A stretch of DNA of 64,000 bases from the NCBI GenBank assembly GCA_025060695.1, contig JANXBH010000009.1, positions 1 to 64,000 of the forward strand, read 5' to 3'. Below the pieces are notes generated by a model. That model was not told the origin of the DNA, made no database searches, and worked only from the letters and a program-made list of their open reading frames with translations. The position numbers and the translations under genes were made by a program. Each line of letters begins with the position of its first letter. The stretch's first letter is position 1. Positions 5,162 through 62,874 of the stretch are shown here, piece after piece. Origin of the DNA: Caldifarciminota bacterium (GTDB lineage Bacteria; Hydrothermota; Hydrothermia; LBFQ01; DSFT01).

Positions 5162-5211
5162 ATTGAAAATTTTAAAGTAATAATTAAATACTTTAAAATT
5201 TATAACTTCTT
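5162..5211. promoter_or_regulatory. Divergent promoter region, gdhA / 5212 gene
   Basis: Two back-to-back CTTTAAAAT elements occupy a 50-base gap. The minus-strand TAAAAT (5169-5174) is 7 bases from the gdhA ATG; the plus-strand TAAAAT (5194-5199) is 12 bases from the ATG at 5212. No consensus -35 is obvious. Confidence 0.6.
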
Positions 5212-6324
5212 ATGGGTTTTGCATATACGCCCGGTTTAAAGGTTACAAAATATACAAGAATAGTAAAGGAAAGGAAATTACCAATTAAGGGAAATGTTCT
5301 TGTAGATAAAGGGCAAAAGGTAGCAGCGGAAGACATAGTAGCAAAAACCGAAATTCCCGGAAATGTTAATATAATAAACATTGCAGGAATACTTGGAATA
5401 ACACCTAAGGAAATTTATAAGTATATAACCAAAAAGGAAGGAGAAGAGATAAAAAAAGGAGAAATTATAGCAATAAACAAAGTACTTTTTGGTCTAATTA
5501 GAAATCCAGTTCTATCTCCAATTGATGGATTTGTAGAGAATATTTCAGATATTACAGGACAAGTTATATTAAGAGAGCACCCAATTCCTATACAAGTAAA
5601 TGCATATGTAGATGGAAATGTAATAAAGGTTATTGAAAATGAAGGAATTGAAGTTGAATGCCATGGTGCTTTTATTCAAGGTATATTCGGTATAGGCGGT
5701 GAAAAGATTGGAAAAATTAGAATTGCAGTAAAAAACCCTGAAGATAGTTTAAAAATAGAACATCTTTTAGAAGATGAAACAGGGAATATTATAGTAGGTG
5801 GTTCATATGCAAATAGCGAAGTAATAAGAGAAGCAATGAGAAGAAATGCTATAGGAATAGTTTTAGGAGGAATAGATGATTATACAATAAAGGAAATACT
5901 TGGATATGATATTGGAGTTGCAATTACAGGAAATGAAAATATTAGTACAACCATAATAATAACTGAAGGATTTGGAAAAATACCAATAGCAAGTAGAACT
6001 TTTGATATATTAAGTTCATTAGATGGTAAAAAAGCTTCTATAAATGGAGCAACTCAAATAAGAGCAGGAGTTATGCGACCAGAGATAGTTGTCCCATTAA
6101 GCGTAGGAAAAGAGGTTGAAAATAAAGAGGATGGGACACTAAAAGTTGGAAAACTTGTAAGAATTATAAGAAGTCCGTATTTTGGTATGATTGGTAAAGT
6201 TGCGGAGCTTCCCATTGAACCTGTAGGTATAGAAACTGAATCAAAAGTAAGAATACTACGAGTTCAAATAGACGGACAAATTATATCTGTCCCAAGAGCA
6301 AATGTAGAATTAATAGAAGAGTAA
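5212..6324 (+). CDS. Conserved-looking protein of unknown function, sandwich-hybrid N-terminus and KOW-like C-terminus
   Basis: 370 residues, no signal peptide or membrane segment. The first part (PGLKVTKYTRIVKERKLP, then GNVLVDKGQKVAAEDIVAKTE) looks like the barrel-sandwich fold seen in RnfC and lipoyl-type domains. A middle part holds GAFIQGIFGIGGEKIGKI and repeated Gly-rich strands with VGGSYANSEVIREAMRR. The C-terminus (GKLVRIIRSPYFGMIGKVAEL then RVQIDGQIISVPRANVELIE) resembles a KOW/SH3-like nucleic-acid or protein-binding domain. I do not recognise the family by name. A TTG-started ABC exporter begins one base after its stop, so the two are likely co-transcribed. Confidence 0.75.
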   Translation: MGFAYTPGLKVTKYTRIVKERKLPIKGNVLVDKGQKVAAEDIVAKTEIPGNVNIINIAGILGITPKEIYKYITKKEGEEIKKGEIIAINKVLFGLIRNPVLSPIDGFVENISDITGQVILREHPIPIQVNAYVDGNVIKVIENEGIEVECHGAFIQGIFGIGGEKIGKIRIAVKNPEDSLKIEHLLEDETGNIIVGGSYANSEVIREAMRRNAIGIVLGGIDDYTIKEILGYDIGVAITGNENISTTIIITEGFGKIPIASRTFDILSSLDGKKASINGATQIRAGVMRPEIVVPLSVGKEVENKEDGTLKVGKLVRIIRSPYFGMIGKVAELPIEPVGIETESKVRILRVQIDGQIISVPRANVELIEE

Positions 6325-6325
6325 A

Positions 6326-8272
6326 TTGGGCGAGTTTAGAAGACTACTAAAGTTTGTTCTTCCATACAAAAAATTTCTAATAATCTCTATATTTGTAGTT
6401 TTAATCTCCGCATTTGTAGAACTTTCTATGCCGTACTTAATAAAAATAGCAATAGATAAGCATATATCTCCACAAGTTGTCCAACTAAATAAAATACCAG
6501 AATGGAAAGATAAATATCCACAAGCATTTTATGAAAACTTCGTTCTCATATATGAAATACCAAATCATTTAAGAAGTGAATTAGAAAAGCTCGGTTATTT
6601 AAGCGAAAAGAAATACTATATTATATCAGATTCTATGGAAAATGCAATAAAGTTCAAGGATAAATACATAATTTCAGTTGAAGAATATAGTAAATTAGAA
6701 AATAAGTTTGCATTAAGGAAAGATGACATTAAGGCTATTATCTTTATTTCCGTAGTTTACATTGGACTTTTGGTTCTTGATTTTATTTTGGTATATTTAC
6801 AGATTTTGATTTTAACGATATTGGGACAAAAAAGCGTATTTGAAATAAGAACTAAGTTATTTGAGCATTTGCTAAAGCTTAGAATAGAGTTCTTTCAAAA
6901 GCAAAAGGTTGGAAGATTAGTAACGAGAGTTGCTAACGATGCAGATGCCATAAATGAATTTTATACTTCAGTTTTAGTAAATTTAATTAGAGACATAGTT
7001 TTAATTATTGGAATAGTAATTTTGATGCTAATTATGAATGTTAAAATTACGCTAATTGTGCTTTCAATTATTCCATTTTTAATTATTGCAAGTGCTATAT
7101 TTAGATACTATGCAAGAAAGGCATATGATAATGTAAGAAGGATACTTGGAGACTTAAATGCATTTTTAAACGAGAGTATAGTTGGAATTTCAGCTATTCA
7201 AGCATTTAATGGTCAAGCTCATATGTTTAAGAAATTTAGTAATGTTAACACTGATTTATATAAGGCATTTTTAAATGTTATTTATGTATTTGGAATATTT
7301 ATGCCAATAGTAAGTCTTGCATCCTCTATTGCAATAGCATTTCTAATTTACCAGGGAGGAATTGATATTATAAAACAATCATTTACATTTGGAAGTCTCG
7401 TAGCATTTATTAACTATATAGAAATGCTATTTAATCCAATTAGGGATTTGGCTGAAAAATACAATACTATGCAGTCCGCATTTATTGCATCAAAAAGAAT
7501 ATTTTTACTAATGTCAGAAAAGACAGAAAACTACTCTCAAGGAAAGATAATTCAGGATGTAAAAGGTCGTATTGAGTTTAAAAATGTATACTTTGCATAT
7601 GAAGAAGAAAATTGGGTCTTAAAGGATTTTAATTTAACCATAGAACCTGGGCAAAAAGTTGCAATAGTTGGTCCAACGGGAAGTGGAAAAACTACCATTA
7701 TGAATTTACTTTTAAGATTTTGGGATGTTCAAAAAGGTCAAATATTGCTTGATGGAGTAGATATTAGGGAATTAAATATTAGCTTTTTAAGAAGTCAATT
7801 TTCATGGGTTTTGCAAGATGTTTTTCTATTTTCTGGTAGTGTTAAGGATAATGTATTTTTATATAGGAAAAATGGGAAAATTGAAAACTACTTGGATTAC
7901 TTTGGAGTAAGTGAATATATAAAGGTTGATAAATTAGTAAACGAAAGAGGAACTACTTTTTCGCAAGGTCAAAGACAAATTATTTCATTCATTAGAGCAA
8001 TTGCAAATAATCCTAAAATATTACTCTTAGATGAAGCAACAAGTAGCATAGACCAAGAAACTGAAAATATAATACAAAAGTCTTTAGAAAAATTACTAAA
8101 AGATAAAACTGCAATAATAATTGCACATAGATTATCTACTATAAAGAATGCTGATAAAATAGTAGTGCTATATAATGGAGAAAAGATTGAAGAAGGAAAG
8201 CATGAAGAACTAATAAATAAAAAAGGCTTTTACTATCATCTATATTCAATACAATTTGAAGCTATAAACTAA
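6326..8272 (+). CDS. ABC exporter, fused membrane and ATPase domains (MsbA/multidrug type) with a large loop insertion
   Basis: 648 residues. A first hydrophobic helix (about 14-40) is followed by roughly 95 mostly hydrophilic residues before the second helix (about 137-160), an insertion absent from simple MsbA-type proteins and predicted to face outside. The ATPase domain (from about 410) has Walker A GPTGSGKTT, an MsbA-like signature FSQGQRQ, Walker B ILLLDEATSS and the switch His in IIAHRLST. The start is TTG, one base after the preceding stop; no better ATG precedes the first helix. It should act as a dimer pumping lipid, peptide or drug outward; the substrate is not evident. It ends 4 bases inside purH. 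Confidence 0.88.
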   Translation: MGEFRRLLKFVLPYKKFLIISIFVVLISAFVELSMPYLIKIAIDKHISPQVVQLNKIPEWKDKYPQAFYENFVLIYEIPNHLRSELEKLGYLSEKKYYIISDSMENAIKFKDKYIISVEEYSKLENKFALRKDDIKAIIFISVVYIGLLVLDFILVYLQILILTILGQKSVFEIRTKLFEHLLKLRIEFFQKQKVGRLVTRVANDADAINEFYTSVLVNLIRDIVLIIGIVILMLIMNVKITLIVLSIIPFLIIASAIFRYYARKAYDNVRRILGDLNAFLNESIVGISAIQAFNGQAHMFKKFSNVNTDLYKAFLNVIYVFGIFMPIVSLASSIAIAFLIYQGGIDIIKQSFTFGSLVAFINYIEMLFNPIRDLAEKYNTMQSAFIASKRIFLLMSEKTENYSQGKIIQDVKGRIEFKNVYFAYEEENWVLKDFNLTIEPGQKVAIVGPTGSGKTTIMNLLLRFWDVQKGQILLDGVDIRELNISFLRSQFSWVLQDVFLFSGSVKDNVFLYRKNGKIENYLDYFGVSEYIKVDKLVNERGTTFSQGQRQIISFIRAIANNPKILLLDEATSSIDQETENIIQKSLEKLLKDKTAIIIAHRLSTIKNADKIVVLYNGEKIEEGKHEELINKKGFYYHLYSIQFEAIN

Positions 8273-9783: not shown

Positions 9784-9817
9784 AAGTTAGAAAATTTTAA
9801 TCTTTAAAATTTTTTAT
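9784..9817. promoter_or_regulatory. Very short divergent promoter, purH / ymdB
   Basis: Only 34 bases separate the two start codons. The minus-strand TAAAAT (9794-9799) and the plus-strand TAAAAT (9805-9810) are 5 bases apart and lie 10 and 7 bases from their ATGs. Any -35 element would have to sit within the other gene. Confidence 0.6.
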
Positions 9818-10609: not shown

Positions 10610-10617
10610 ATGAGCTC

Positions 10618-10623
10618 TAAAAT
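10618..10623 (+). promoter_or_regulatory. -10-like box of the 10630 gene
   Basis: A TAAAAT hexamer in the context CTCTAAAATTT lies 6 bases before a GTG start, right after the ymdB stop. It supports both the GTG choice and separate transcription. Confidence 0.5.
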
Positions 10624-10629
10624 TTCAGT

Positions 10630-11562: not shown

Positions 11563-11568
11563 AGAAAC

Positions 11569-11934: not shown

Positions 11935-11947
11935 ATCTTTTATTTAC

Positions 11948-11963
11948 CCGCCCCAAAGGGCGG
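11948..11963 (-). terminator. GC-rich hairpin after the subtilase gene (terminator-like)
   Basis: A 6-bp perfect stem (CCGCCC/GGGCGG) with a 4-base loop stands out in very AT-rich DNA between the subtilase stop and the DoxX start. No clear U-run follows on the minus strand, so it may be a 3'-end stabiliser or attenuator rather than a classic terminator. Confidence 0.45.
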
Positions 11964-11969
11964 AAAGTT

Positions 11970-14597: not shown

Positions 14598-14649
14598 AGC
14601 TAAATTTTAAAGGTAAAAAGTGATAGTCTTTAAAATTTTAATTAAATTT
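14598..14649. promoter_or_regulatory. Divergent promoter, subtilase / rsmH
   Basis: A minus-strand TAAAAT (14604-14609) is 6 bases from the subtilase ATG; a plus-strand TAAAAT (14631-14636) is 13 bases from the rsmH ATG chosen here at 14650. Confidence 0.55.
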
Positions 14650-16672: not shown

Positions 16673-18538
16673 ATGTTAATATTAGTAATATCTCAACTAC
16701 AAAATACAGACTTTGAAAATTGGTCCTATATTACAAGAAGTATACCTTTTGCATGGGATACCATAAAAAATTCACCTGCATCTTGTTCTTGGCAGATAGA
16801 GCAAAATACAGTAAGGTTAGGTAGCTATTCCGTGAGGATTACCATAAATTCTACTGCAAGTGGATACGACTGTGCTATAGGTCAAGCAAAGGGTGTAAGC
16901 CCATCTACAAATTATAACGTATCCGCATGGGTTTATGATAATGATAACAGAATTAGCGCACAACTATATGTTGCTTGTTATGACAATAACGAAAATCTAT
17001 TGAATTCTCAACTCATAGGTTCTCAATCAACTGACAACCCAAGCTGGCAACAACTTACAGGCACATACACGACACCTAACAATTGTAGATACATGGATGT
17101 TCAAGTAAGAACATACGACGATAATAGTCCAAATGGGGTAATTTATATAGATGGGATAAGTTTAACAACAGGAACTGCTCCGAATGAATTAAGAGAAAGT
17201 TTTGGTTCTTATCCACCATCTCAGTGGAGAGAATTTGACATCGGAACAACTCCTGATGGACTTTTACAAAGAAGAACTAGTGCATGTCCATTTTCTAATA
17301 ACGATAATTCCTGCTTTGGTATAAAGTTTAGACAGCAGGATGCAGATTCAAGTGTAGTAGGATTAAGTTTTCTTATGACTGATACTTTGGACTTCACTTC
17401 AACTTCTGCTGAAACATTAAGATTTAGTTGGAGAGTTAATCAAACAAATGAAAATATTCCTCCATCTGACTCAATAGTAATACAAATATCAACGGATTTA
17501 GGAAATTCTTGGACAAGAATATGGAGATGGAATGGAAATTTATCTATGTCAAGAATAGATGAAAGTATCCCACTAAACCAATATAATGGTATAGAACAGG
17601 TCTTGCTAAGAATTGCTTTTTATAAGCATTCAACGAATGGAAGCTCAACTTTACAAAATAGATATTTTAATTTGGACTCCTTTATAGTAAGAAACTCATA
17701 TGTTTCAAGATATAACAGATTAACTAACAGTTCAGTAGAAAGATGGCTAATTGCAAACCAGGACATGATGCCCAATCATTGGAGAAGGTGGAACAACAGA
17801 GCACCAGAGAATAACGGAAGAAGTGCTCAACTATGGATTACAAGGGAAAACTCTAATTATTCTGGAAATTATTCAGTCAAGGCATTTTTTACAACTATAC
17901 TTAATCCGTTTATTGAACAAAAGTTTTCAAATCCATTTAATAGTTGTGCAGGATATCCAATTAGCTTAGTAGATAGTTTTGTTGCAATATCTAGTATTAG
18001 ATTTTACGATAATGATCCAAAGGCAAGAGCAAGAACTGGTATAGTTTGGTACTATCAAAATTTAACGCAAAACGACTATCCAAACAACTATACAACAGAT
18101 AACACTAACTGGCAAAGCTATACTAATAGAGCGGTGTTTCTTGGACCAAATCAACCAGGTGGAAATAATTTTGATTCTATAGCCTTTAGAATTAGATTTT
18201 ATAATCAAGGCTCTTTTCAAGAAGCTGAGGATGGAGGAACAATTTTCGCAGATAGTCTTAATTTTAGATTACTTTGCTTTGTAGGTGGAACTACACCTGT
18301 GGATATAGTTGAGTTTCCTATGAATGAATATTTTACCTATATCAGAACTAACAATTTTGGAATTGAAATTATGCCAAGAAGTAATGTTAACATTAGCATA
18401 TACTCCATAGATGGAAGAAAAGTATACTCAAAGCATATAAATACTAAAACTCATATTCCTTTAAGAAGTGGAATATATACAATTGTAGCATATAGAGATA
18501 ATAAACTTGTGTTTTCAAAGAAATACATAGTAAAATGA
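16673..18538 (+). CDS. Large secreted protein with carbohydrate-binding-like domain and C-terminal sorting domain
   Basis: 621 residues. The start is well fixed by an AAAGGAGG site 7-8 bases upstream and an in-frame TAA just before it. The leader is only about eight residues (MLILVISQ). Residues 15-165 look like a carbohydrate-binding-like jelly roll (NVSAWVYDNDNR, MDVQVRTYDDNSPNG, IYIDGISL); further beta-rich modules follow. The C-terminal 70 residues are a type IX-like tail (ISIYSIDGRKVYS ... RSGIYTIVAYRDNK). No catalytic motif is evident. The next gene, a secreted PLD-type protein with the same tail, overlaps its stop by 4 bases, so the two are probably made together. Likely cell-surface or released. 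Confidence 0.8.
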   Translation: MLILVISQLQNTDFENWSYITRSIPFAWDTIKNSPASCSWQIEQNTVRLGSYSVRITINSTASGYDCAIGQAKGVSPSTNYNVSAWVYDNDNRISAQLYVACYDNNENLLNSQLIGSQSTDNPSWQQLTGTYTTPNNCRYMDVQVRTYDDNSPNGVIYIDGISLTTGTAPNELRESFGSYPPSQWREFDIGTTPDGLLQRRTSACPFSNNDNSCFGIKFRQQDADSSVVGLSFLMTDTLDFTSTSAETLRFSWRVNQTNENIPPSDSIVIQISTDLGNSWTRIWRWNGNLSMSRIDESIPLNQYNGIEQVLLRIAFYKHSTNGSSTLQNRYFNLDSFIVRNSYVSRYNRLTNSSVERWLIANQDMMPNHWRRWNNRAPENNGRSAQLWITRENSNYSGNYSVKAFFTTILNPFIEQKFSNPFNSCAGYPISLVDSFVAISSIRFYDNDPKARARTGIVWYYQNLTQNDYPNNYTTDNTNWQSYTNRAVFLGPNQPGGNNFDSIAFRIRFYNQGSFQEAEDGGTIFADSLNFRLLCFVGGTTPVDIVEFPMNEYFTYIRTNNFGIEIMPRSNVNISIYSIDGRKVYSKHINTKTHIPLRSGIYTIVAYRDNKLVFSKKYIVK

Positions 18539-21617: not shown

Positions 21618-21671
21618 TTTTAGAAATTTTAAAGGTTTTTCAGAGTAAACTACTTTAAAATTTAGCAAGAT
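21618..21671. promoter_or_regulatory. Divergent promoter, 21617 gene / phosphohexomutase
   Basis: A minus-strand TAAAAT (21626-21631) is 8 bases from the TTG at 21617; a plus-strand TAAAAT (21656-21661) is 10 bases from the ATG at 21672. The pair argues for the shortened left-hand gene. Confidence 0.5.
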
Positions 21672-26671: not shown

Positions 26672-26713
26672 TTAAAAATTTTAAAGTAAAACAATAACCT
26701 TATAATTTTCCGA
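26672..26713. promoter_or_regulatory. Divergent promoter, M16 pair / ftsE
   Basis: A minus-strand TAAAAT (26678-26683) is 6 bases from the peptidase ATG. A plus-strand TATAAT (26701-26706), the exact bacterial -10 consensus, is 7 bases from the ftsE ATG. Confidence 0.6.
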
Positions 26714-28582: not shown

Positions 28583-28634
28583 ATGAAAATTTTAAAGTCG
28601 TATCAATGCTTAAAACTTTAAAATTTCAATAATT
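28583..28634. promoter_or_regulatory. Divergent promoter, enoyl-CoA hydratase / FadN-like gene
   Basis: A minus-strand TAAAAT (28589-28594) is 6 bases from the hydratase ATG; a plus-strand TAAAAT (28619-28624) is 10 bases from the ATG at 28635. Confidence 0.6.
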
Positions 28635-30939: not shown

Positions 30940-31884
30940 ATGATATTTAATATCATCAAGGGATTTATATTAGTTTTCGGAGTTCTAACAGGTTCAGCTT
31001 ATATGGTTTGGCTTGAAAGAAGAGTATCGGCATGGATACAAGATAGAATCGGTCCAAACAGAGTTGGGCCTTTTGGACTATTACAACCTCTTGTAGACGT
31101 TGTTAAACTACTATTTAAAGAAGAAATTGTTCCTATTACAGCAGAAAAATTCATTCACTTCCTTGCTCCGGGTATTATAATAGTTAGTGTCATAACCGCA
31201 TCGGTTCTAATTCCTGTAGACCCAAACTTTATTATTACAAATCCAGGTATTGGCATTTTACTCATAATGGGATTAAGCTCACTTTCCGCTTACTCAGTCG
31301 TACTTTCTGGCTTTGCATCACTTACAAAATATCCCGTTTTAGGAAGTCTAAGAGCTTCCGCACAAGTGGTTTCCTATGAAATACCAATAGCACTTAGTGT
31401 TCTTTCAGTTGTCGTTTTATCTAATAGTTTATCTTTAGTGGATATAGTAAACGCTCAAAAAGAAACATGGTTTATATTAATAAATCCTATTGGATTTATA
31501 GTGTTTTTAATTGCTTCCTTTGCAGAAACCAATAGAGCACCATTTGACTTGCCTGAAGCAGAGAGTGAGCTAACAGGTGGTTATCATACTGAGTTTTCAT
31601 CCATGAGATTTGCTTGGTTTTTTGCAGGAGAATACGGACATATTATAATATCATCAGCTGTTATTACTACCTTGTTCTTGGGCGGTTATCATGGTCCAAT
31701 AGCAAGTGGACTTTGGTGGTTTCTTATTAAAGTCTTTATACTTTGCTATATTTTCGTTTGGGTAAGGTGGACATTCCCAAGACTTAGATATGACCAACTT
31801 ATGAAATTCTCATGGAAGCTTCTAATACCAGTCTCACTGATAAATCTACTTATCATTGCATTAGTAAAAATACTACAACTTTAA
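30940..31884 (+). CDS. nuoH: NADH-quinone oxidoreductase subunit H (complex I subunit 1)
   Basis: 314 residues, multi-pass membrane protein. The family's most conserved loops are present: ERRVSAWIQDRIGPNRVGP, then GLLQPLVDVVKLLFKE, and ETNRAPFDLPEAESELTGGY. NuoH lines the quinone chamber of complex I. No other nuo gene is nearby; it lies between the FadN-like gene and rseP, so the complex I genes appear dispersed. Membership in a membrane-bound hydrogenase is possible, but the length and loops fit NuoH. Confidence 0.93.
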   Translation: MIFNIIKGFILVFGVLTGSAYMVWLERRVSAWIQDRIGPNRVGPFGLLQPLVDVVKLLFKEEIVPITAEKFIHFLAPGIIIVSVITASVLIPVDPNFIITNPGIGILLIMGLSSLSAYSVVLSGFASLTKYPVLGSLRASAQVVSYEIPIALSVLSVVVLSNSLSLVDIVNAQKETWFILINPIGFIVFLIASFAETNRAPFDLPEAESELTGGYHTEFSSMRFAWFFAGEYGHIIISSAVITTLFLGGYHGPIASGLWWFLIKVFILCYIFVWVRWTFPRLRYDQLMKFSWKLLIPVSLINLLIIALVKILQL

Positions 31885-31887
31885 AAT
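31882..31887 (+). promoter_or_regulatory. -10-like box of rseP
   Basis: TAAAAT in the context CTTTAAAATTT overlaps the nuoH stop codon and lies 9 bases before the rseP ATG, suggesting separate or additional transcription of the rseP-lpxD pair. Confidence 0.5.
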
Positions 31888-39552: not shown

Positions 39553-39984
39553 CTATGTTTTCTTAACAACTGCCAACGTTATTCTCTTACTACCACCTCT
39601 TTTTACTGCGTCAATAGTATTTAAAACTGTTTGCCAGTCAACTGATTTATCTGCTCTTATTACAACTAATTGTTCTCCAAGTTCCGCATCTGGATTTTTT
39701 GCTTTATATTCTTCCTGCGCTGATTTTATAAGTTGAACTAATTCTTGCAAACTCACCTGTTTGTCTTTTAAATATACAGTTTTATCTTTCTTTATAGAGA
39801 CTGCCAAGCTTTGCTCTAAATCAGCCTCTATAACTCTTGCTTTTGGAACTTCAACCTCTACACTAGTACTCTGAAACATCTGCTTTGACGCAATAATCAA
39901 CGTTATGAAAATGAATGCAAATATATTAGCAAGGTTAAATACCGCTTGTGCTACTTCTCCTTCTCCACCTTTTGCCTTGGCCAT
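39553..39984 (-). CDS. exbD: ExbD/TolR-like protein (second copy)
   Basis: 143 residues. One N-terminal hydrophobic helix (FNLANIFAFIFITLIIA) is followed by a periplasmic domain with VSIKKDKTVYLKDKQVSLQEL and VVIRADKSVDWQTVLNTIDAVKRGG, the ExbD/TolR pattern. An Asp is expected in the helix of the motor protein; here the helix reads without it, which may mean a non-motor or structural role. A strong GGGAGG site precedes the ATG. Adjacent to a second, different ExbD. Confidence 0.87.
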   Translation of the reverse strand: MAKAKGGEGEVAQAVFNLANIFAFIFITLIIASKQMFQSTSVEVEVPKARVIEADLEQSLAVSIKKDKTVYLKDKQVSLQELVQLIKSAQEEYKAKNPDAELGEQLVVIRADKSVDWQTVLNTIDAVKRGGSKRITLAVVKKT

Positions 39985-39987
39985 AAT

Positions 39988-40422
39988 TTAACCTCCCCTC
40001 TTCATTATCAAAACATCACCCGCTCCTTTACTTTTTAGAAAATCGATCATTTGAACAACATTTTCATAAACAACTTCAGGATCAGCAGACAGTAAGGCAT
40101 TTTTTTCTATACTTCTAGCTAATAACTTTGGTACAAGGTCTTCAAGTTGTTCCTGAGTAACAGGTTTTTTATTTAACTCAATTATTCCGTCTGCTCTCAT
40201 ATGTATACTAACCTTTACGTCAGTTTTAACTTGTTTTTGTTGTATAGGTCTATTTAACTTAGCAGCCATTGACCTACTTATAAAAATTCCAGATTCTACA
40301 ATAAATGGAATAGTTAGAACGAAAACCTTAACCAAAGAACCCATTACATCTGTCAAAGAAATGAGGCCCGCTGCTGGGACCTCTGCTTCAACACTACCGT
40401 GTTCTAACCTTCTTTTTGGCAT
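39988..40422 (-). CDS. exbD: ExbD/TolR-like protein (first copy)
   Basis: 144 residues. The N-terminal region SLTDVMGSLVKVFVLTIPFIVES holds the membrane helix with an Asp just before it (TDVMGSL), the position of the conserved ion-carrying Asp in this family. The periplasmic part shows IHMRADGIIELNKKPVTQEQL and ADPEVVYENVVQMIDFLKSKG. Two different ExbD subunits next to one ExbB are common in FCB-type envelope clusters. The gene is preceded by a GAGGGGGTG site. Confidence 0.87.
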   Translation of the reverse strand: MPKRRLEHGSVEAEVPAAGLISLTDVMGSLVKVFVLTIPFIVESGIFISRSMAAKLNRPIQQKQVKTDVKVSIHMRADGIIELNKKPVTQEQLEDLVPKLLARSIEKNALLSADPEVVYENVVQMIDFLKSKGAGDVLIMKRGG

Positions 40423-44808: not shown

Positions 44809-45345
44809 TTATAATTTTAAAGGATAAGTTTTAAGAATTTCATACTTAGGCCCTGAAGGATATAGAAAACTCTGAAAAAGAGCTATTTCTTTTACTTCAA
44901 AATCATCATTGAATTTTAGATTTACTACTTCCAAATTAAACGAATACAACGAATTCTTATTCCTTGCTATAGTTATATGAGGACTAAAAGGTTTACTATC
45001 ACCTAAATTATAAAAACTATCCATAACCTCTCTTGCAAGACAATCCAATTCTCTTGTGTTTTCAATACCTATCCAAATTACTGAAACTTTATCACCATAA
45101 ATAGGAAATTTTCCAAGAGTAGCAAGTTTTAGACTAAACTTAGTATGATTCTTTGAAATTTCTTTTAGTTTATCGTCAATTCTATAAACCATATCCTCTT
45201 CTACCTCACCAAGAAATTTTAAAGTCAAGTGATACAAGTTTGGAGAAACCCACTTAAAATTGTATTTTTTCATAAGTGGTTTTACTAAGTTGTATATGCT
45301 ATTTTTTATATGAAGTGGTAAATCAATACCTATAAACAATCTCAT
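44809..45345 (-). CDS. thpR: RNA 2',3'-cyclic phosphodiesterase (2H phosphoesterase)
   Basis: 178 residues. The two HxTx motifs of the 2H superfamily are YHLTLKFLGE and FSPHITIAR, and the N-terminus MRLFIGIDLP is diagnostic. It opens 2',3'-cyclic phosphate on RNA ends. It lies between mfd and the envelope operon; a TATAAT box at the mfd stop is 12 bases before its ATG. Confidence 0.92.
   Translation of the reverse strand: MRLFIGIDLPLHIKNSIYNLVKPLMKKYNFKWVSPNLYHLTLKFLGEVEEDMVYRIDDKLKEISKNHTKFSLKLATLGKFPIYGDKVSVIWIGIENTRELDCLAREVMDSFYNLGDSKPFSPHITIARNKNSLYSFNLEVVNLKFNDDFEVKEIALFQSFLYPSGPKYEILKTYPLKL
44814..44819 (-). promoter_or_regulatory. -10-like box of the envelope operon
   Basis: On the minus strand TAAAAT, in CTTTAAAATTA, lies 8 bases before the ATG of the barrel gene and overlaps the 3' end of thpR. 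It would drive the ten-gene run down to 34094. Confidence 0.5.
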
Positions 45346-47902: not shown

Positions 47903-47936
47903 ATTTTAAAATTTTAATGGCTTTAAAATTTGGACT
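47903..47936. promoter_or_regulatory. Divergent promoter region, mfd / methylmalonyl-CoA mutase
   Basis: Minus-strand TAAAAT boxes at 47903-47908 and 47911-47916 are 37 or more bases from the mfd TTG. The plus-strand TAAAAT (47924-47929) is 7 bases from the mutase ATG. Confidence 0.5.
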
Positions 47937-52660: not shown

Positions 52661-52701
52661 GCTGAAATTTTAAACTACAAAATAGCTTTAAAATTTTCCA
52701 A
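52661..52701. promoter_or_regulatory. Divergent promoter, V-ATPase B / metal-binding lipoprotein
   Basis: A minus-strand TAAAAT (52667-52672) is 6 bases from the atpB ATG; a plus-strand TAAAAT (52689-52694) is 7 bases from the ATG at 52702. Confidence 0.6.
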
Positions 52702-55454: not shown

Positions 55455-55457
55455 CTT

Positions 55458-55463
55458 TAAACT
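55458..55463 (+). promoter_or_regulatory. -10-like box of the amidinotransferase gene
   Basis: TAAACT in CTTTAAACTTT lies 8 bases before the TTG start at 55472, just after the permease stop. It supports the TTG choice. Confidence 0.4.
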
Positions 55464-55471
55464 TTTAGTCT

Positions 55472-56284: not shown

Positions 56285-56310
56285 TTGATAATCTAATATT
56301 TAAGGGGGTA

Positions 56311-56339
56311 TTGACTTTGAGGGGGAGAAGCTTTAAAAT
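56311..56339 (+). promoter_or_regulatory. Full sigma-70-type promoter of the FG-GAP protein gene
   Basis: TTGACT (56311-56316), a 17-base spacer and TAAAAT (56334-56339), only 6 bases before the ATG. This is the clearest consensus promoter in the window and, as drawn, leaves no room for a 5' leader or ribosome site. Confidence 0.75.
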
Positions 56340-56345
56340 TATAAT

Positions 56346-58322
56346 ATGTTAGTTTATATACTTTCACAAGTAAGTGTAATACAAACTGATTGGTATAATG
56401 GGCCAGAGAGGGCAAATCTTTCACCATTCTGTCAAAACAATCCTACCAACTTAATTTGTTCAAATGATTGTCCCTTAGTTACAAACCCACCACATGGTAG
56501 CTTCTCCAATAAATTTTGCAAGCACGACGGAAATATATTCTACTTATTTCAGGGAAAACTTAGACTAAAAGGAGTTTTTAGAACAATATTAGAACATTCT
56601 TTAGATCCAAGTGTTGGAGGATGGGATAATGACCCTGATATTTTCGACGTAAATAAAGACGGATTTTTAGACTTAGTAGTAACTGATGAACAAAGCCCGA
56701 ACAGACATGCTTGGGTTTATTTCAATCCATACGGATGTGGTAATTTCTCGCAAGCAAATAGAGTGACAGCAGTAAATGATATAGAAAGTATAGATGAAAT
56801 AGATGAAGGCGATGCTGATAGGGATGGTGATATTGATTTATTTACTGTTGGTCATAGTAATCACGACGAAGATGTAGTACTGCTAATAAATAACGGTAAT
56901 TCTACAAATTGGTCAAAGTGCGTCATTTGTATGGACTTGAACGGTAATAATTGTTCGAATGGAACTGGTGAAGCTGAAGGCATAGCAGTTGGAGATTTAG
57001 ATAATGACGGAGACCTTGATATAGCCGTCACGCAATTAAACGATGGTAGAGTATACTGGTTTGAAAAACTACCAAATAATTCAAACTTAGGCTTTGGATG
57101 TAATAATATTGACGGCAAAAATCACAGATATAATAGATATGAAATTTATAGTGGAGGGACAGGCACAGCATGGGATGCTTGGATAGCTGATATGAATAAC
57201 GATGGAAGAAGAGATATTATAGTAACAACGCAAAGGGAAGTAATGTGGTTTAGAAACAATGGAGGAAGTCCATTAACATTTACAAGGTTTACAATCGAAA
57301 ATAACAATAATGCGAACTTCTATGCACTATGGGTAAAAGATATAAATAATGACGGTGATTTAGATATAGTAGTAACAGATAGAGCAGGAAGAATAAGAAT
57401 ATATAGAAATGATGGTTTAGGAAGCTTTCCAAATAATTGGCAAATTACGATAAATGTCAATAACCCTATGGGTGTTGTAATAGCGGACTTAGAACCAGAC
57501 GGAGATCAGGATATATTTGTAGCAAGCTATGTGCCAAACGATAAAAGGATATACGCATACGAAAATACAAGTGGAAATGTTTTAGATAACCAAAATATAA
57601 ACTTTACGCAAATTATTCCAGCGAATGTTCCACAGAGAAGTTATTTTGGACTTGGTGTTGGTGATGTAGATAGTGATGCTGACCCTGACTTGGTTGTAAG
57701 AGCAGGAACAAATGGAAATCCAGAGGGTCTATATTGGTATTCAACTGAACTGCTTTACGTCAATCGAGGTATAATGATTTCAAATGTAGTAGACATAAAT
57801 GGTATAATGAAAACTTGGAAATTACACAGAATTGAACTAATAGGCTTTGATCCGTTAAATTGTCAAGCCATAGTACCAAATGAGCAATTTTATTATAGAT
57901 ATACAAGCAGTTCTAACTGGACGGATATATATAATCAAAACTGGATAGGACCAATAACGAACTTTCCATATACACCACCATCAACACAAATGGTAAAATA
58001 CATACAATATATGCTAATTTTAAACTCACTTAATAATAATGAACGAACTCCAGTAGTTGAGGAAGTTAGGTTTATCTTTGATACTCTTATAACTCCTGTA
58101 AGTGCAGAGGAAAACGAAAATAAGCACTATTACAAGCTAATTAAAAATAAAATCCAATTTAACATGGAAGGTCATGTAAGGATATTAAAACTTGATGGCA
58201 CAGTATATAAAGAAATGAAAGTTAAAACAGGAGATGAAATTACATTGAAGAAAGGAATATACATTATACAGTTTACAAATAATTACCTAAAACTTCAAAG
58301 GAATAAGATAGTAATTAAATAG
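56346..58322 (+). CDS. Secreted FG-GAP/VCBS-repeat protein with C-terminal sorting domain
   Basis: 658 residues. From about residue 97 to 470 there are seven calcium-loop repeats of the type D-x-(D/N)-x-D-G-x-x-D: DVNKDGFLD, DADRDGDID, DLDNDGDLD, DMNNDGRRD, DINNDGDLD, DLEPDGDQD and a weaker DVDSDADPD. This forms an integrin-alpha-like beta-propeller. The C-terminal tail is type IX-like (RILKLDGTVYKEMKVK ... KKGIYIIQF). The leader is MLVYILSQ with an in-frame TAA 12 bases upstream, so it cannot be longer. Probably a surface adhesin or scaffold. Ends 8 bases inside prfB. Confidence 0.88.
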   Translation: MLVYILSQVSVIQTDWYNGPERANLSPFCQNNPTNLICSNDCPLVTNPPHGSFSNKFCKHDGNIFYLFQGKLRLKGVFRTILEHSLDPSVGGWDNDPDIFDVNKDGFLDLVVTDEQSPNRHAWVYFNPYGCGNFSQANRVTAVNDIESIDEIDEGDADRDGDIDLFTVGHSNHDEDVVLLINNGNSTNWSKCVICMDLNGNNCSNGTGEAEGIAVGDLDNDGDLDIAVTQLNDGRVYWFEKLPNNSNLGFGCNNIDGKNHRYNRYEIYSGGTGTAWDAWIADMNNDGRRDIIVTTQREVMWFRNNGGSPLTFTRFTIENNNNANFYALWVKDINNDGDLDIVVTDRAGRIRIYRNDGLGSFPNNWQITINVNNPMGVVIADLEPDGDQDIFVASYVPNDKRIYAYENTSGNVLDNQNINFTQIIPANVPQRSYFGLGVGDVDSDADPDLVVRAGTNGNPEGLYWYSTELLYVNRGIMISNVVDINGIMKTWKLHRIELIGFDPLNCQAIVPNEQFYYRYTSSSNWTDIYNQNWIGPITNFPYTPPSTQMVKYIQYMLILNSLNNNERTPVVEEVRFIFDTLITPVSAEENENKHYYKLIKNKIQFNMEGHVRILKLDGTVYKEMKVKTGDEITLKKGIYIIQFTNNYLKLQRNKIVIK

Positions 58323-59383
58323 AATTTCTTTTAAGTAGTAAATATGCTCTAATGAATTCGTCAATTTCGCCATCTAATACTAAATCTGGGTTAGTATGTT
58401 CAAAATTAGTTCTATGGTCCTTTACTAATTTATATGGGTGGAGTATATACGACCTAATTTGGTGACCCCATGCAATATCGGTTTTTTGCTCCTCAATTTC
58501 CTTTAATTTTTGTTCTTCTTGCTGTTTATAATAATCATATAACTTAGATTTTAAAATCTTTAAAGCAATTTCTTTATTTTTATGTTGAGAACGCTCACTT
58601 CTAATTGTTACTACTATACCTGTAGGAATATGGGTAATTCTTACTGCACTTTCTGTTTTATTTACATGCTGACCTCCTGCCCCACTAGACCTAAAAGTTT
58701 CAATTTTTAAATCATTTTCATTTATACTAATTCTTAAGTCTTCCTTTTGAGGATAAACGAAGACAGAAGCAAAAGAAGTATGTCTTCTACTATTTGCATC
58801 AAAAGGTGATATTCTTATTAATCTATGAACACCCACCTCACTCCTTAATAAGCCATATGCATATTTACCCTTAACAAGAATTGACACTGATTTAATTCCT
58901 ACAACTTCACCAGGGATAATATCCAATATCTCGTATTTAAAATTTTTCTTTTCTATCCATCTTAAATACATGCGCATCAACATCTGTGCCCAATCGTGAC
59001 TTTCTGTTCCACCCGCACCGGGATGAATTTCTAAAATAGCATCAAGTTTATCATCTTCATTTCCCAAAAGCGTACTTATTTCAAGCTCATTTAATTTCTT
59101 TTCAAACAACTTTAACTTTATTTCATATTCTTTTTGAAAATCAGTATCTTCTAATGCCAATTCAGATAAAAGCATTATTTCTTCATGAAGCTTTTTTATA
59201 GTATCAATCTCTTGAAGTTTTTCCTTTAAATTTGAAAGTTCTAATAATAATTCTCTTGCTCTTTCCTTATTCTTCCAAAATTCTTCACTGTTGGAAAGAC
59301 TCTCAATTTCACTTATTCTGTGTCTTATCTTTTCCTCTTCAAAGATAGGAAATTAATTTTTTGTATCTTTCAAAAATATCCAT
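58315..59383 (-). CDS. prfB: Peptide chain release factor 2, made by a programmed +1 frameshift
   Basis: The ORF track shows only 58315-59175. The gene really begins at the ATG at 59383: 14 codons (MDIFERYKKLISYL) reach an in-frame TGA at 59341-59339; slipping +1 at CTT-TGA continues in the frame EEEKIRHRISEIESLSNSEEFW, which joins the tracked ORF. Downstream are LLSELALEDTD, HPGAGGTESHDWAQMLMRMY and the peptidyl-release motif [18 protein letters not shown] appears as IRISPFDANSRRHTSFASV. RF2 terminates at UGA/UAA and the TGA in its own mRNA gives feedback control. Total about 355 residues. prfA is encoded at the right edge. Confidence 0.93.
59339..59347 (-). promoter_or_regulatory. prfB programmed +1 frameshift site
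   Basis: On the minus strand TAT-CTT-TGA, the same nine bases as the E. coli RF2 site. The upstream bases (AATTTCC) do not include the AGGGGG-type Shine-Dalgarno-like element that stimulates the E. coli shift, and the site comes after only 14 codons. Confidence 0.85.
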
Positions 59384-59386
59384 AAG

Positions 59387-59402
59387 CTTTAAAATTTTAA
59401 AG
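59387..59402. promoter_or_regulatory. Palindromic bidirectional -10 element, prfB / tRNA-Ser
   Basis: A perfect 16-base palindrome CTTTAAAATTTTAAAG contains TAAAAT on both strands: 10 bases from the prfB ATG on the minus strand and 14 bases from the tRNA on the plus strand. The two -10 boxes overlap. Confidence 0.6.
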
Positions 59403-59409
59403 CTTTCTT

Positions 59410-59498
59410 GGAGGGATGGCCGAGCGGACGAAGGCGGCGGCCTGGAGAGCCGTTATTCCCTTAAAAGGGAATCGTGGGTTCAAATCCCACTCCCTCCG
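59410..59498 (+). tRNA. tRNA-Ser (anticodon GGA)
   Basis: The acceptor stem GGAGGGA pairs perfectly with TCCCTCC. The D-arm region is GGCCGAGCGGACGAAGGC, the anticodon loop CTGGAGA gives GGA for UCC/UCU serine codons, and a long variable arm (ATTCCC/GGGAAT) is typical of class II tRNA. The T arm GTGGGTTCAAATCCCAC is perfect. CCA is not encoded. G+C is high as expected for a hyperthermophile or thermophile tRNA in AT-rich DNA. Confidence 0.96.
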
Positions 59499-59502
59499 CT
59501 TT

Positions 59503-59883
59503 ATGAATAATCCCTTGGAACATCCACTGTATGTTTATTATAAATATCCTAGATATAGAGGAAAATTAGATAATTATAATAAAACTGCTCATAAAGGAAA
59601 TCCAAGTTGTGGAGATGAAATTATATTTTATGTAGAAGTTGAAAATAATATAATTAAACAAATAGGCTATGAAGGTCATGGGTGTTCAATAAGCCAGGCA
59701 TCAGCCGATATCTTATCAGATTGGGCATTAGGGAAACATGTAAATGAAATAATAAATTTAGAAGAAAGGCAATTTTTAAATATGTTAGGAGAAATAATAC
59801 AAACAAGAATAAAGTGTGCACTTTTGAGTCTTGAAGTATTAAAAACTGCTTTAAAAAGAGGAGGAGAGAATGAAGGACATTAG
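59503..59883 (+). CDS. sufU: Iron-sulfur cluster assembly scaffold, SufU/NifU-like
   Basis: 126 residues from the ATG at 59503; the ORF-track start at 59416 lies inside the tRNA and is wrong. Zinc/cluster ligands are in NPSCGDEI, GHGCSISQASA and RIKCALLSL, in the SufU order. It acts as sulfur acceptor or scaffold for Fe-S clusters. It starts 4 bases after the tRNA and overlaps gltA by 14 bases. No sufS or sufBCD is nearby. Confidence 0.92.
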   Translation: MNNPLEHPLYVYYKYPRYRGKLDNYNKTAHKGNPSCGDEIIFYVEVENNIIKQIGYEGHGCSISQASADILSDWALGKHVNEIINLEERQFLNMLGEIIQTRIKCALLSLEVLKTALKRGGENEGH

Positions 59884-61036
59884 AGAAATAGGAGAACCTG
59901 TGTTTAGCTCAGGTCTTGAAAATATATACTTCTCAGAAACTAAACTTTGTTATATTGATGGTGAAAATGGAAGATTGTATTACTTAGGTATTCCTATTGA
60001 AGAACTTGCTGATAATTCAACATTTGAGGAAAGTTCATATTTACTTCTTTATCAGAAACTACCTAATAAAGAAGAACTTGAAAATTTTGATAGAAAACTA
60101 AGAGAGAATAGAGAGATTTCAGAAATACTACTAAAGGAGGAAGAGTTAATTCCCAAAAATGCTCATCCCATGGATGTAATAAGAACAATTGTATCATTTA
60201 ATGGAATGCTAGATGAAAAAGCAACATCAAGAAATGAAGAAGAACTATTAGAAAAGGCAAATAAGCTAATAGCTATGCTACCAACGATAGTCGCATACTT
60301 CCACAGAATAAGAAATAATCTAAATACCGTTAAACCTGATAGAGAATTAAATCATGCAGGCAACTTTCTATACATGCTAAGAGGAGAAAAACCATCAGAT
60401 ATTGAAATTGAAATTTTTGATAAAACATTAATCTTATATTTGGAACACGGAATGAATGCATCTACATTCTCCGCAATAGTTACAGCATCAACTCAATCTG
60501 ATATTTATTCATCAATTACAAGCGCAATAGGAACACTTAAAGGTCCACTTCATGGAGGTGCCAACGAAGAAGCTATGAAAATGTTGTTTGAAATTGATGA
60601 AAAATATAATGGGGATGTTGAGAAGTATTTAAAAGAAAAACTTGCAAGAAAAGAAAGAATAATGGGTTTTGGTCATAGAGTTTATAAAGCATACGATCCA
60701 AGAGCAAGAATACTTAAAAACTTAGCTTTAAAATTAGCGGACTACACAAACAATAGAAAGTGGATAGATATGCAAATTCAATTAGAAGAAAAGGCAGGAC
60801 CAATTCTTGGAGAAAAGCAAATCTATCCAAATGTAGATTATTATGCTGCAAGTATATACTACATGTTAAAAATACCATTCGATTTGTATACGCCCATTTT
60901 TGCAATTGCGAGAATTGTAGGATGGATATCACACATTTTAGAATATTGGAAGTCTTCAGGGAGGCTTATAAGACCGAGAGAAAAGTATATAGGAGAATTA
61001 AACAAGCCATATATAAAAATTAACGAAAGGAGGTAG
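59870..61036 (+). CDS. gltA: Citrate synthase
   Basis: 388 residues. The catalytic residues are His228 (GPLHGGANEE), His269 (MGFGHRVYK) and Asp323 (PNVDYYAASIY), with the substrate-binding LEHGMNAST and DPRA. It condenses acetyl-CoA and oxaloacetate. The start overlaps sufU and is preceded by a GGAGGAG site. It is the shorter Gram-positive/archaeal-type enzyme. Followed directly by the acidic Trp-repeat gene. Confidence 0.95.
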   Translation: MKDIREIGEPVFSSGLENIYFSETKLCYIDGENGRLYYLGIPIEELADNSTFEESSYLLLYQKLPNKEELENFDRKLRENREISEILLKEEELIPKNAHPMDVIRTIVSFNGMLDEKATSRNEEELLEKANKLIAMLPTIVAYFHRIRNNLNTVKPDRELNHAGNFLYMLRGEKPSDIEIEIFDKTLILYLEHGMNASTFSAIVTASTQSDIYSSITSAIGTLKGPLHGGANEEAMKMLFEIDEKYNGDVEKYLKEKLARKERIMGFGHRVYKAYDPRARILKNLALKLADYTNNRKWIDMQIQLEEKAGPILGEKQIYPNVDYYAASIYYMLKIPFDLYTPIFAIARIVGWISHILEYWKSSGRLIRPREKYIGELNKPYIKINERR

Positions 61037-61237
61037 ATGATGGAAGAGTTAAAGAAAATGTGGTTGCTAGCAAAGGAAGAAGAGGAAGAGGAAGAAGAAT
61101 GGGAAGAGGAAGACTGGGACGAAGAGGAAAATTGGGACGACGAAGAAGACTGGGAAGATGACGAAAACTGGGAAGATGAAGAGGATTGGGAAGAGGAGGA
61201 AGACTGGGACGAGGAAGAGGAGGAAGAAGAGAAGTAG
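61037..61237 (+). CDS. Extremely acidic small protein with Trp hexad repeat
   Basis: 66 residues from ATG-ATG right after the gltA stop, with a strong AAGGAGGT site overlapping the end of gltA. Residues 14-65 are nearly all Glu/Asp/Asn with tryptophan at 22, 27, 33, 39, 45, 51 and 57, so from 27 on one Trp every six residues, of the form W-[DE]-[DE]-E-[DE]-[DN]. The short N-terminus MMEELKKMWLLAKEE is amphipathic. No family comes to mind. The opposite-strand Ser-rich ORFs are shadows. Low-complexity DNA could be a misread, but the ribosome site and the operon placement argue for a real gene. Confidence 0.7.
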   Translation: MMEELKKMWLLAKEEEEEEEEWEEEDWDEEENWDDEEDWEDDENWEDEEDWEEEEDWDEEEEEEEK

Positions 61238-61248
61238 AAAAGAACATT

Positions 61249-61265
61249 GGGTGGCAAAGCCACCC
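61249..61265 (+). terminator. GC-rich hairpin after the acidic gene (terminator-like)
   Basis: A perfect 7-bp stem GGGTGGC/GCCACCC with AAA loop lies 11 bases after the acidic gene's stop and 10 bases before the next ATG. No U-run follows. Like the hairpin at 11948, it is strikingly G+C-rich for this DNA. Confidence 0.5.
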
Positions 61266-61275
61266 CATAAAAGCT

Positions 61276-61803
61276 ATGAATATAGTAATTCTATATTTAG
61301 AGATAGATAGTGCAAAAAGTGTTGATTTAAAAAATGACTTTATTATAAAAGTTCTTAAACCTGAAAGCCTTTATATTAGAATTTCTAACAGATATTACTA
61401 CTTTTTTATGGGTTATACGCCATTTGAAATGAAATTACCAGAAGGCTTTTACTACATCGAATATCAGAATAAAAAAGATAGCCTCTTTTTAAAAGGAGGA
61501 TATATTTACAATATTGAAATACCACAAGATTTAAAAGCAAATAAACCTAAGAAAGTAGGATACGAATATCAAATTAGAAAAGAGTTTAATAAAGATATAA
61601 GCAGAGATAGTTGTTATCTAGTTCTTGAAGGAGGAACTGATAGTTTAACAATTGAAGTTGATACAATGAAATACTCATATAAGGTTCCTTCGGAATTTTA
61701 CTTCATAGCAAAGAAGAAAATAAAAATTATAACAAAAGACGTTGAAAAAGAAATATTTTTAGAGCCTCAGTTTATATACTATATAAACATAAAATCAAGA
61801 TGA
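61276..61803 (+). CDS. Unknown small exported-looking protein, beta-rich
   Basis: 175 residues from the ATG at 61276; the tracked start at 61186 reads through the hairpin and the acidic gene and is unlikely. A brief hydrophobic leader (MNIVILYLE) is followed by beta-strand patterns (LYIRISNRYYYFFMGYTP, FEMKLPEGFYYIEYQNKKDS) reminiscent of PEGA-type or carboxypeptidase-regulatory folds, repeated once (SLTIEVDTMKYSYKVPSEFYF). Not recognised by name. The stop overlaps the following lipoprotein gene as ATGA. Confidence 0.65.
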   Translation: MNIVILYLEIDSAKSVDLKNDFIIKVLKPESLYIRISNRYYYFFMGYTPFEMKLPEGFYYIEYQNKKDSLFLKGGYIYNIEIPQDLKANKPKKVGYEYQIRKEFNKDISRDSCYLVLEGGTDSLTIEVDTMKYSYKVPSEFYFIAKKKIKIITKDVEKEIFLEPQFIYYINIKSR

Positions 61804-62861
61804 GAAAATTAGTTTTCATATTTTTAATTTCATGCTCTGCTCTAAAACTACAAACGATTGAAAAAGAAAGTGAGAAGCTTGAAGTATACTGCGATGAAAA
61901 TAAGTATGTGGAAGATACTATTATTACTATTGCAAGTTATAACGTAGAAAACCTATTTGATGATATTGAAGACGGATATGAATATAAGGACTATTCAAAA
62001 AATACAAGTAATTATTCTACTGAGTTCTTTATAAAGAAAATAAACAATATAAAAAAAGTTCTAACCGATATTAATCCTGATATTGTAGGTTTTCAAGAAA
62101 TAGAGAACAAAAGAGCACTAAGTAAACTCTTTGAAAATATAAAAGATTTAAATTACAAATGTTTTGTTATTGCAGATAAACCCCAATTTTCAACGGTAAA
62201 AACCGCATTAATATCAAAATATGAAATTATAGAAGCCATAGGATATAAAACCATACCCGATGTAAGAAATATACTCTTTGCAAAAATTTCAGTAAATGGT
62301 AATATATTATATGTTTTTGTAAATCATTGGAAAAGTAAAAAAGGACCAGAATCAGAAAGAATCAAAATAGCAAAAATTCACAGAAAAATTATAGATAGTT
62401 TGCTTAAAGTTGAGCCAGATGCAGATATTGTTTCAATAGGAGATTTCAACACACATTACGATGACAAACAAAGCGATGTTATTGAAGGTAATGCATTTAA
62501 CTACAAACCAATAATAGGTCTTATAGACATACTAAAAACAACTGGAAACATAGATTCACTAAAATACGGATACCTATACAACTTATGGTACGATATACCA
62601 AAAGAAGAGAGGGGAAGCCATTATTATAAAGGAAACTGGGGGACGTTGGACCACATATTAATTAGCAAAGGACTGCTTGATACCATTGGAATTAGTTATA
62701 TAAAAAATAGTTTTAGGGTGTTTAAAGCAAGCTATCTTTTAGATGAAGCGGGAATTCCATATAGATGGCAAGTAGAATTTGAAGGTGATAGAACTATACA
62801 TCTTGGAAAAGGATTTGCTGACCATTTACCTATATATGCAAAGTTTAAATTAAGAAAATAG
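61800..62861 (+). CDS. Lipoprotein of the endonuclease/exonuclease/phosphatase family
   Basis: 353 residues. Leader MRKLVFIFLISC with a lipobox Cys, so membrane-anchored. The catalytic fold is shown by IASYNVENLF, DIVGFQEIENK, VNHWKSKKGPES, SIGDFNTHYDD, WGTLDHILISK and GFADHLPIYAKF, giving the Asn, Glu, Asp/Asn and final Asp-His pairs of Mg-dependent phosphodiesterases. It may act as extracellular nuclease or phosphatase. Belongs to the same small operon as the 61276 gene. Confidence 0.88.
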   Translation: MRKLVFIFLISCSALKLQTIEKESEKLEVYCDENKYVEDTIITIASYNVENLFDDIEDGYEYKDYSKNTSNYSTEFFIKKINNIKKVLTDINPDIVGFQEIENKRALSKLFENIKDLNYKCFVIADKPQFSTVKTALISKYEIIEAIGYKTIPDVRNILFAKISVNGNILYVFVNHWKSKKGPESERIKIAKIHRKIIDSLLKVEPDADIVSIGDFNTHYDDKQSDVIEGNAFNYKPIIGLIDILKTTGNIDSLKYGYLYNLWYDIPKEERGSHYYKGNWGTLDHILISKGLLDTIGISYIKNSFRVFKASYLLDEAGIPYRWQVEFEGDRTIHLGKGFADHLPIYAKFKLRK

Positions 62862-62868
62862 TTTACTT

Positions 62869-62874
62869 TAAAAT
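62869..62874 (+). promoter_or_regulatory. -10-like box of rplU-prfA
   Basis: TAAAAT in CTTTAAAATTTT lies 9 bases before the rplU ATG, directly after the lipoprotein gene. Confidence 0.55.

Follow-up and report, generated by a model that had tools for sequence, protein, structure and literature searches.

Along a window of 64,000 nucleotides from a Caldifarciminota bacterium, by which the whole analysed stretch of DNA is meant, the hexamer TAAAAT or a close variant stands a few bases ahead of one start codon after another. This raises the question of whether the hexamer is a promoter element so close to the gene that the mRNA would have almost no leader, as the initial annotation proposed, or a signal of another kind. 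The boxes and distances given in that annotation, for example at gdhA, purH, ymdB, rsmH, prfB and rplU, were found where it had placed them (Table 1). The evidence favours a nearly fixed putative promoter, CTTTAAAATTT, which would abut the start codon in about 40% of genes in the source bacterium and its relatives.

The source genome (G000) is a MAG of 1.50 Mb in 77 contigs, 94.9% complete and with about 30% GC, and the window lies on its contig C77. Together with further stretches, the window made up 627 kb of analysed DNA, of which 85 kb are intergenic and 542 kb coding. The samples of relatives, which were smaller than that of the source genome, comprised one genus mate (G001) and two family mates (G002 and G003; 52-53% GC), which with G000 form family f1, the order-mate family f2 (G004-G011), and the families f3, f4, f6 (G015) and f10 of the same class, with small samples for f3, f4 and f10. 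Genes were called, and starts assigned, by a home-made codon-bias caller. For the chance test, start codons picked without reference to the box (box-blind starts) were used, with dinucleotide shuffles as control (200 for the window, with at most 6 box-bearing first genes in any of them). In addition, an EM model learned start codon, Shine-Dalgarno (SD) site and box jointly, with distances of 0-45 bases permitted and TAnnAT as the sole seed. A test set of genes with a stop codon close upstream of the start was discarded in favour of the box-blind starts and the EM model; it was biased because the TAA of the box is an in-frame stop whenever the distance d is a multiple of 3.

Table 1. Boxes ahead of genes in the window, with two contrasting cases (nt, nucleotides between box and start)
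Element	Position	Strand	Context
TAAAAT	5169..5174	-	7 nt before gdhA ATG (5161); Pfam ELFV dehydrogenase
TAAAAT	5194..5199	+	12 nt before ATG 5212
TAAAAT	9794..9799	-	10 nt before purH ATG (9783)
TAAAAT	9805..9810	+	7 nt before ymdB ATG (9818)
TAAAAT	10618..10623	+	6 nt before GTG 10630 (bactofilin-like)
TAAAAT	14604..14609	-	6 nt before subtilase-like gene ATG (14597)
TAAAAT	14631..14636	+	13 nt before rsmH ATG (14650)
TAAAAT	21626..21631	-	8 nt before TTG start (21617)
TAAAAT	21656..21661	+	10 nt before phosphomannomutase ATG (21672)
TAAAAT	26678..26683	-	6 nt before M16 peptidase ATG (26671)
TATAAT	26701..26706	+	7 nt before ftsE-like ABC gene ATG (26714)
TAAAAT	28589..28594	-	6 nt before enoyl-CoA hydratase ATG (28582)
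TAAAAT	28619..28624	+	10 nt before FadN-like ATG (28635)
TAAAAT	31882..31887	+	9 nt before rseP ATG (31897)
TAAAAT	44814..44819	-	8 nt before ATG 44805
TAAAAT	47924..47929	+	7 nt before methylmalonyl-CoA mutase ATG (47937)
TAAAAT	52667..52672	-	6 nt before V/A-type ATP synthase B ATG (52660)
TAAAAT	52689..52694	+	7 nt before ZnuA-like lipoprotein ATG (52702)
TAAACT	55458..55463	+	8 nt before TTG 55472
TAAAAT	56334..56339	+	6 nt before FG-GAP protein ATG (56346)
TAAAAT	59390..59395	+	14 nt before mature tRNA-Ser 5' end (59410); non-coding RNA with the same element
TAAAAT	59394..59399	-	10 nt before prfB ATG (59383); overlaps the tRNA-Ser box in a palindrome
TAAAAT	62869..62874	+	9 nt before rplU ATG (62884)
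Contrast, leadered first gene	16673..18538	+	box about 33 nt upstream, then AGGAGG right before ATG (16673)
Contrast, operon-internal genes	39553..40422	-	SD sites GGGGAGG and GAGGGGG; no box

The window holds some further features. The palindrome shared by tRNA-Ser and prfB, AAGCTTTAAAATTTTAAAGCTT (59388-59409), is a perfect one of 22 bp and drives the tRNA gene and prfB on opposite strands. Near 59340 the prfB gene (58315-59383, - strand) reads TAT CTT TGA, as is characteristic of the programmed frameshift of RF2, and the open reading frame listed from 59175 is only its downstream part. Positions 1-2560 have 45% GC as against about 30% elsewhere and are possibly a chimeric join or a horizontally acquired stretch; CRISPR-like repeats follow (at about 2538 and 2846; ATCCCTATGAGGGATTGAAA). 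The segment 23040-23980, after the phosphomannomutase gene, has no intact long open reading frames and looks like the remnants of a mobile element or another decayed gene.

With box-blind starts, 13 of the 31 operon-first genes of the window have TA[AT]A[AC]T at 6-13 bases, compared with 1.7 ± 1.2 in shuffled sequence; the box-aware model gives a higher count because several of the starts chosen by coding score sit too far downstream. In the whole 627 kb the box-blind figure is 111/254, against 12.9 ± 3.7 (maximum 23) after shuffling. Intergenic DNA contains the longer form CTTTAAAATT 147 times, where dinucleotide shuffles predict 5, and coding DNA contains it 26 times, where 19 are expected; with at most one mismatch, this form is found at d=5-13 and then nearly vanishes until a small second group at 24-35. 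The unconstrained motif search with the EM model arrived at RCTTTAAAATTT, with about 15 bits and a distance peak at 6-11 bases, or more exactly at aaCTTTAAAATTTt, with 14.8 bits and a modal distance of 7 (probabilities of 0.18 at 6, 0.26 at 7, 0.12 at 8, 0.11 at 9, 0.08 at 10 and 0.05 at 11). The genome-wide distance peak at 6-10 that had been named as a check on the initial annotation is present, and the TAAAAT hexamer on which that annotation was built is real, although the full motif is 12 bp long and not plain TAAAAT. In promoter numbering, it has R at -16, C at -15 (0.86), T at -14 (0.80), T at -13, TAAAAT at -12 to -7 and TT at -6/-5; the positions at which the box varies least include T-12, A-11 and T-7. 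Leaderless-type genes make up about 40% of the total by EM calls (214/541), which is an upper-side estimate as these calls lean toward starts near a box, and about 30% by box-blind counts.

The function of the element is clearest at genes of stable RNAs. In the source genome, all 11 lead tRNA genes (11/11) have the box ahead of their mature 5' end, at 9-14 bases and most often at 10; the tmRNA has it at 28 bases, and in the rRNA operon CCTTTAAAATTTT precedes the 16S gene by about 100 bp. The tRNA genes of G001, G002, G003, G006 and G008 show the same arrangement, even at 52-55% GC. A box placed before tRNA, tmRNA and rRNA genes is therefore a promoter -10 element and not a translation signal, and this settles, as far as sequence can, that the element directs transcription. 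If transcription starts 6-7 bases past the hexamer, tRNA leaders of about 3-8 nt are predicted.

Among protein-coding genes, the use of the box depends on the gene context. The initial description of the tight arrangement as near-universal holds for divergently oriented first genes, with a box at 14 bases or less in 124/152 to 124/156 of them (about 80%; 627 kb), but not for same-strand genes preceded by a gap of more than 60 bp, where 22-25 of about 80 have one. Where the gap is 1-25 bp, 55 of 116 same-strand genes carry it, the TAA often being the stop codon of the previous gene; with about half of these genes having a box, it is therefore not restricted to obvious operon heads. Same-strand genes that overlap the previous gene have it in 12 of 163 cases. 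An SD-like site was detected at 2/139 leaderless-type first genes vs 44/93 other first genes, and the anti-SD is intact at the 3' end of the 16S gene. An SD site is frequent at those first genes whose box lies farther off, such as the gene at 16673, and the operon-internal genes at 39553..40422 have SD sites and no box (Table 1).

Among 76 divergent pairs, both members are leaderless-type in 48, and in these the distance between the start codons is 42 bp at the median and 20 bp at the least, so that there is no room for a leader plus an SD site. The closest pair is served by attactttaaaattttaaat, a single palindromic box read both ways, and in 40 of the 48 pairs any -35 box would land in the box, the start or the coding region of the partner. 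The start codons of purH and ymdB in the window have 34 bp between them, and the purH orthologue of G001 has CCTTAAAATTTT ahead of the same start. The median divergent gap is 47.5 bp in the source genome, 57 bp in G001 and about 150 bp in f1g2 and f2; it is larger in f4, f10 and f6, for which the samples are tiny.

Canonical sigma70 promoters combine the -10 box with a TTGACA-like -35 box at a spacer of 16-18, which is essentially absent here: no column from -57 to -17 is informative in the promoters of the source genome. Matches to TTGACA of at least 4/6 at this spacing are found at 24% of f1 sites vs 17% of control windows, a weak residual signal, and at 12% vs 10% in f2; the corresponding figures in f4, which served as a positive comparison, are 31% vs 16%. 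The TG at -15/-14 of an extended -10 (TGn) is likewise missing, with C and T there instead, and the CTT may act like an extended -10 made of other bases. RpoD keeps its regions 2.4, 3.0 and 4.2. At what is taken to be position Q446 of E. coli sigma70, f1 and f2 have a common His (ADQ/ADN to ADH), where most relatives have Gln and f3 has Asn; the substituted site adjoins the -10 recognition helix. G000 and G001 also have I/M at the position assigned, under the same presumed numbering, to T440. One hypothesis is that the His is linked to the C at -15. The source genome contains two further sigma-factor-like genes.

The start codon at leaderless-type genes is TTG in 25/213 cases (about 12%) in the source genome, at d=6-9. 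The next in-frame ATG or GTG of these genes is at least 13 codons on, or absent within 60 codons, and two of the TTG starts align start-to-start (Met-to-Met) with orthologues.

The same motif and distance are found in G001 and in G002/G003, in the latter with 13.7 bits at 52% GC, and in 19 pairs of reciprocal-best orthologues the box is kept and the flanks have diverged. In f2 the motif takes the form C(-18, 95%)..C(-15, 68%).tTAnAATa, 5-12 bases before the starts and without a -35 box, and the box is present in about 53% of genes according to the model, with SD sites in only 7/105. The near-invariant C at -18 with the C at -15 (G004-G010) forms an upstream element unlike both a -35 box and TGn. 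Family f3 is mixed. In f4 and f10 a -35 box is present and more genes have SD sites, with TTG at spacer 17-18 in 17/49 sites of f4, and f6 (G015), the negative control, is SD-led and has no distance peak.

The motif, its position, its presence at tRNA, tmRNA and rRNA genes, the exclusion of SD sites and the order-wide conservation, all read from the DNA itself, make it highly probable that RCTTTAAAATTT is the housekeeping core promoter and that the resulting mRNAs are leaderless or near-leaderless. The exact 5' ends, the recognition by RpoD and the route of translation are predictions. TAAAAT at -12 to -7 would be the -10 hexamer, with the CTT at -15 to -13 filling the place of TGn, TT downstream at -6/-5, and the -35 box normally missing. 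Transcription would start 6-7 bases past the hexamer. As only 6-11 bases separate the end of the hexamer from the start codon, about 40% of genes would give an mRNA whose leader measures 0 to about 5 nt. The claim of almost no leader made at the outset is supported in this sense, and 0 to about 5 nt is the more exact wording, since d spans 6-13 and its upper values permit short leaders and not strictly none. The ribosome would presumably bind the 5' start codon directly. Operon-internal genes, and first genes whose box is farther away, would rely on SD pairing with the intact anti-SD.

Other explanations of the box differ in where they place the start of transcription or of translation. As the box occupies the usual SD place, and as its frequency at same-strand genes with short gaps fits operon-internal use, it could be an A/U-rich ribosome or S1 site in the mRNA, as in Bacteroidetes, with transcripts that begin further upstream. 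The same 12-mer, however, precedes untranslated tRNA genes at a near-fixed distance, as well as tmRNA and rRNA genes, it matches a -10 hexamer and varies least at positions that include T-12, A-11 and T-7, and it is rare at genes overlapping the previous one, all of which makes such a site very unlikely. Another reading keeps the box as a -10 element and takes the annotated starts to be mistaken, with the true ones downstream, after a normal leader with an SD site; several possible starts do exist at some loci, and f2 genomes often use GTG or TTG. This is extremely unlikely, as PurH (MKYALVSV...), RsmH, FtsE and L21 start exactly at the codon near the box, most box-sharing orthologue pairs align residue 1 to residue 1, and nearly no SD sites occur upstream of leaderless-type first genes. 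TAAAAT-like words are common in an AT-rich genome of 30% GC, but both shuffled controls fall far below the observed counts and the same box and distance recur in G002/G003 at 52% GC, which leaves chance a negligible probability. Stable-RNA boxes, orthologue starts and shuffles were the grounds on which the translation signal, mis-annotation and AT-richness were rejected.

It is also conceivable, if unlikely, that the long motif is read by a factor other than RpoD, either a global activator or another sigma factor, and that RpoD uses other promoters. About 15 bits in one block without a -35 box would be unusual for a primary sigma factor, two more sigma-like genes are available, and region 4.2 of RpoD is intact. 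However, housekeeping, rRNA and tRNA genes all have the box, which is what one would expect if the primary sigma factor read it, and f1 and f2, both with C at -15, share the ADH substitution in RpoD beside the -10 helix. The housekeeping promoter, probably read by RpoD, is the preferred account.

The machinery of tRNA maturation in f1 is unusual as well. RNase P RNA (RF00010 and RF00011; types A and B) and RnpA (PF00825) were not found in any of the four f1 genomes (4/4), and HARP (PF08745), a protein-only RNase P, was found in all of them (4/4; in G000 at C22:7721-8152). The reverse is seen in f2, with RNase P RNA and RnpA and no HARP. In f1 the RNA enzyme has apparently been replaced by the protein-only one, which fits the very short tRNA leaders predicted. 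HARP-only bacteria are a small group of thermophiles (PMC10941002), of which f1 looks like a further case. The small bacterial SRP RNA (RF00169) was not found in 13 genomes (G000-G012), where another SRP type is perhaps in use.

Leaderless expression itself is of a known kind, and what is unusual here is its stereotypy and compactness. Archaeal leaderless transcripts, made from TATA/BRE promoters about 26 bp upstream, likewise lack a leader and have the start codon as 5' end, whereas the promoter described here lies 6-11 bp upstream. The closest bacterial parallel is that of Deinococcus-Thermus, in which RpoD needs no more than a -10 hexamer lying 6-7 bp from the ORF, a -35 box merely enhances, and the 6-bp motif TANNNT precedes about 30% of ORFs, the highest average among the phyla studied (Zhong et al. 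2025, PMC12340547). The two have in common a -10 element next to the start codon, the dispensable -35 box and the role as an alternative to SD sites, which in Deinococcus-Thermus is phylum-wide (PMC12340547). They differ in that the element here is a near-invariant block of 12 bp, its hexamer preceded by CTT (-15 to -13) and followed by TT, appears in about 40% of genes (53% in f2) by the model, and is also found on tRNA, rRNA and tmRNA genes.

TA-led genes, whose starts follow a -10-like signal at a distance of about 10 bp, are widespread in bacteria and occur beside SD-led genes (PMC3160421); for Lactococcus, Zheng et al. (2011, PMC3160421) describe a TG peak, the -35 box having probably been lost. 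The lineage studied here has the features of such genes: the hexamer is enriched about 6-13 bp upstream with a sharp distance peak, SD sites are missing at these starts and present elsewhere with an intact anti-SD, and the tRNA, tmRNA and rRNA boxes mark the hexamer as a probable promoter element. Unlike in low-GC TA-led genomes such as Lactococcus, with TG, the extension is CTT in f1 or C(-18)/C(-15) in f2. The leaderless class of GeneMarkS-2 covers 21.6% of bacterial species, as cited in PMC9581028; the available text of that paper and of PMC3160421 does not mention the lineage, and nothing relevant on the motif or on leaderless genes of WOR-3 came up in literature searches. Mycobacteria also have a large class of leaderless mRNAs beside leadered ones (Shell et al. 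2015, PMC4633059), in which leaderless initiation occurs only at AUG/GUG (PMC4633059), unlike the TTG starts described above, for which the 5' ends are predicted. Bidirectional bacterial promoters with pseudo-symmetric -10 elements, which overlap in opposite directions and are read both ways, are also known (PMC12825309, PMC10268837); overlapping elements of this kind lie here between two genes, protein-coding or for a tRNA, whose start codons are 20-26 bp apart. The initial annotation had noted that leaderless mRNAs are known in other bacteria and that the tight form is unusual, and both points stand: they are known in Deinococcus-Thermus and Actinobacteria, and four features are unusual here, namely the near-absence of the -35 box with CTT or C(-18)/C(-15) in its stead, the divergent spacing of 20-42 bp, the TTG starts and the apparent reliance on HARP. 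Information content, extent and use on all stable-RNA genes examined are further differences.

Joined into a single account, which is tentatively given a little less than an even chance, these observations would mean that the primary promoter has been rebuilt in an order of uncultured bacteria. One extended block, CTT-TAAAAT-TT in f1 and C(-18)..C(-15).TAnAAT in f2, would have taken over from a discarded -35 box, together with the change of ADQ to ADH in RpoD, which would allow divergent genes to be packed at 20-42 bp, sometimes on one palindromic box. Leaderless translation would accept UUG, and in one family tRNAs with short leaders would be matured by protein-only RNase P.

The lineage would be another one among bacteria with leaderless expression as a main route. 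Its stereotyped promoter, with about 15 bits and no -35 box, would make operons, transcription start sites and correct start codons readable from sequence alone, and annotations such as those of rsmH and prfB can be corrected in this way. Leaderless TTG starts, if the 5' ends confirm them, would be a difference in translation and not in promoters alone, and leaderless UUG starts, if true, would break the rule known from mycobacteria. The class forms a graded series, from SD sites with a -35 box (f6, f4, f10) through a mixed state (f3) to leaderless genes without a -35 box (f2, f1). How the -35 box is lost and how leaderless genes spread, a question about the evolution of promoters and translation, can therefore be tested directly in these bacteria.
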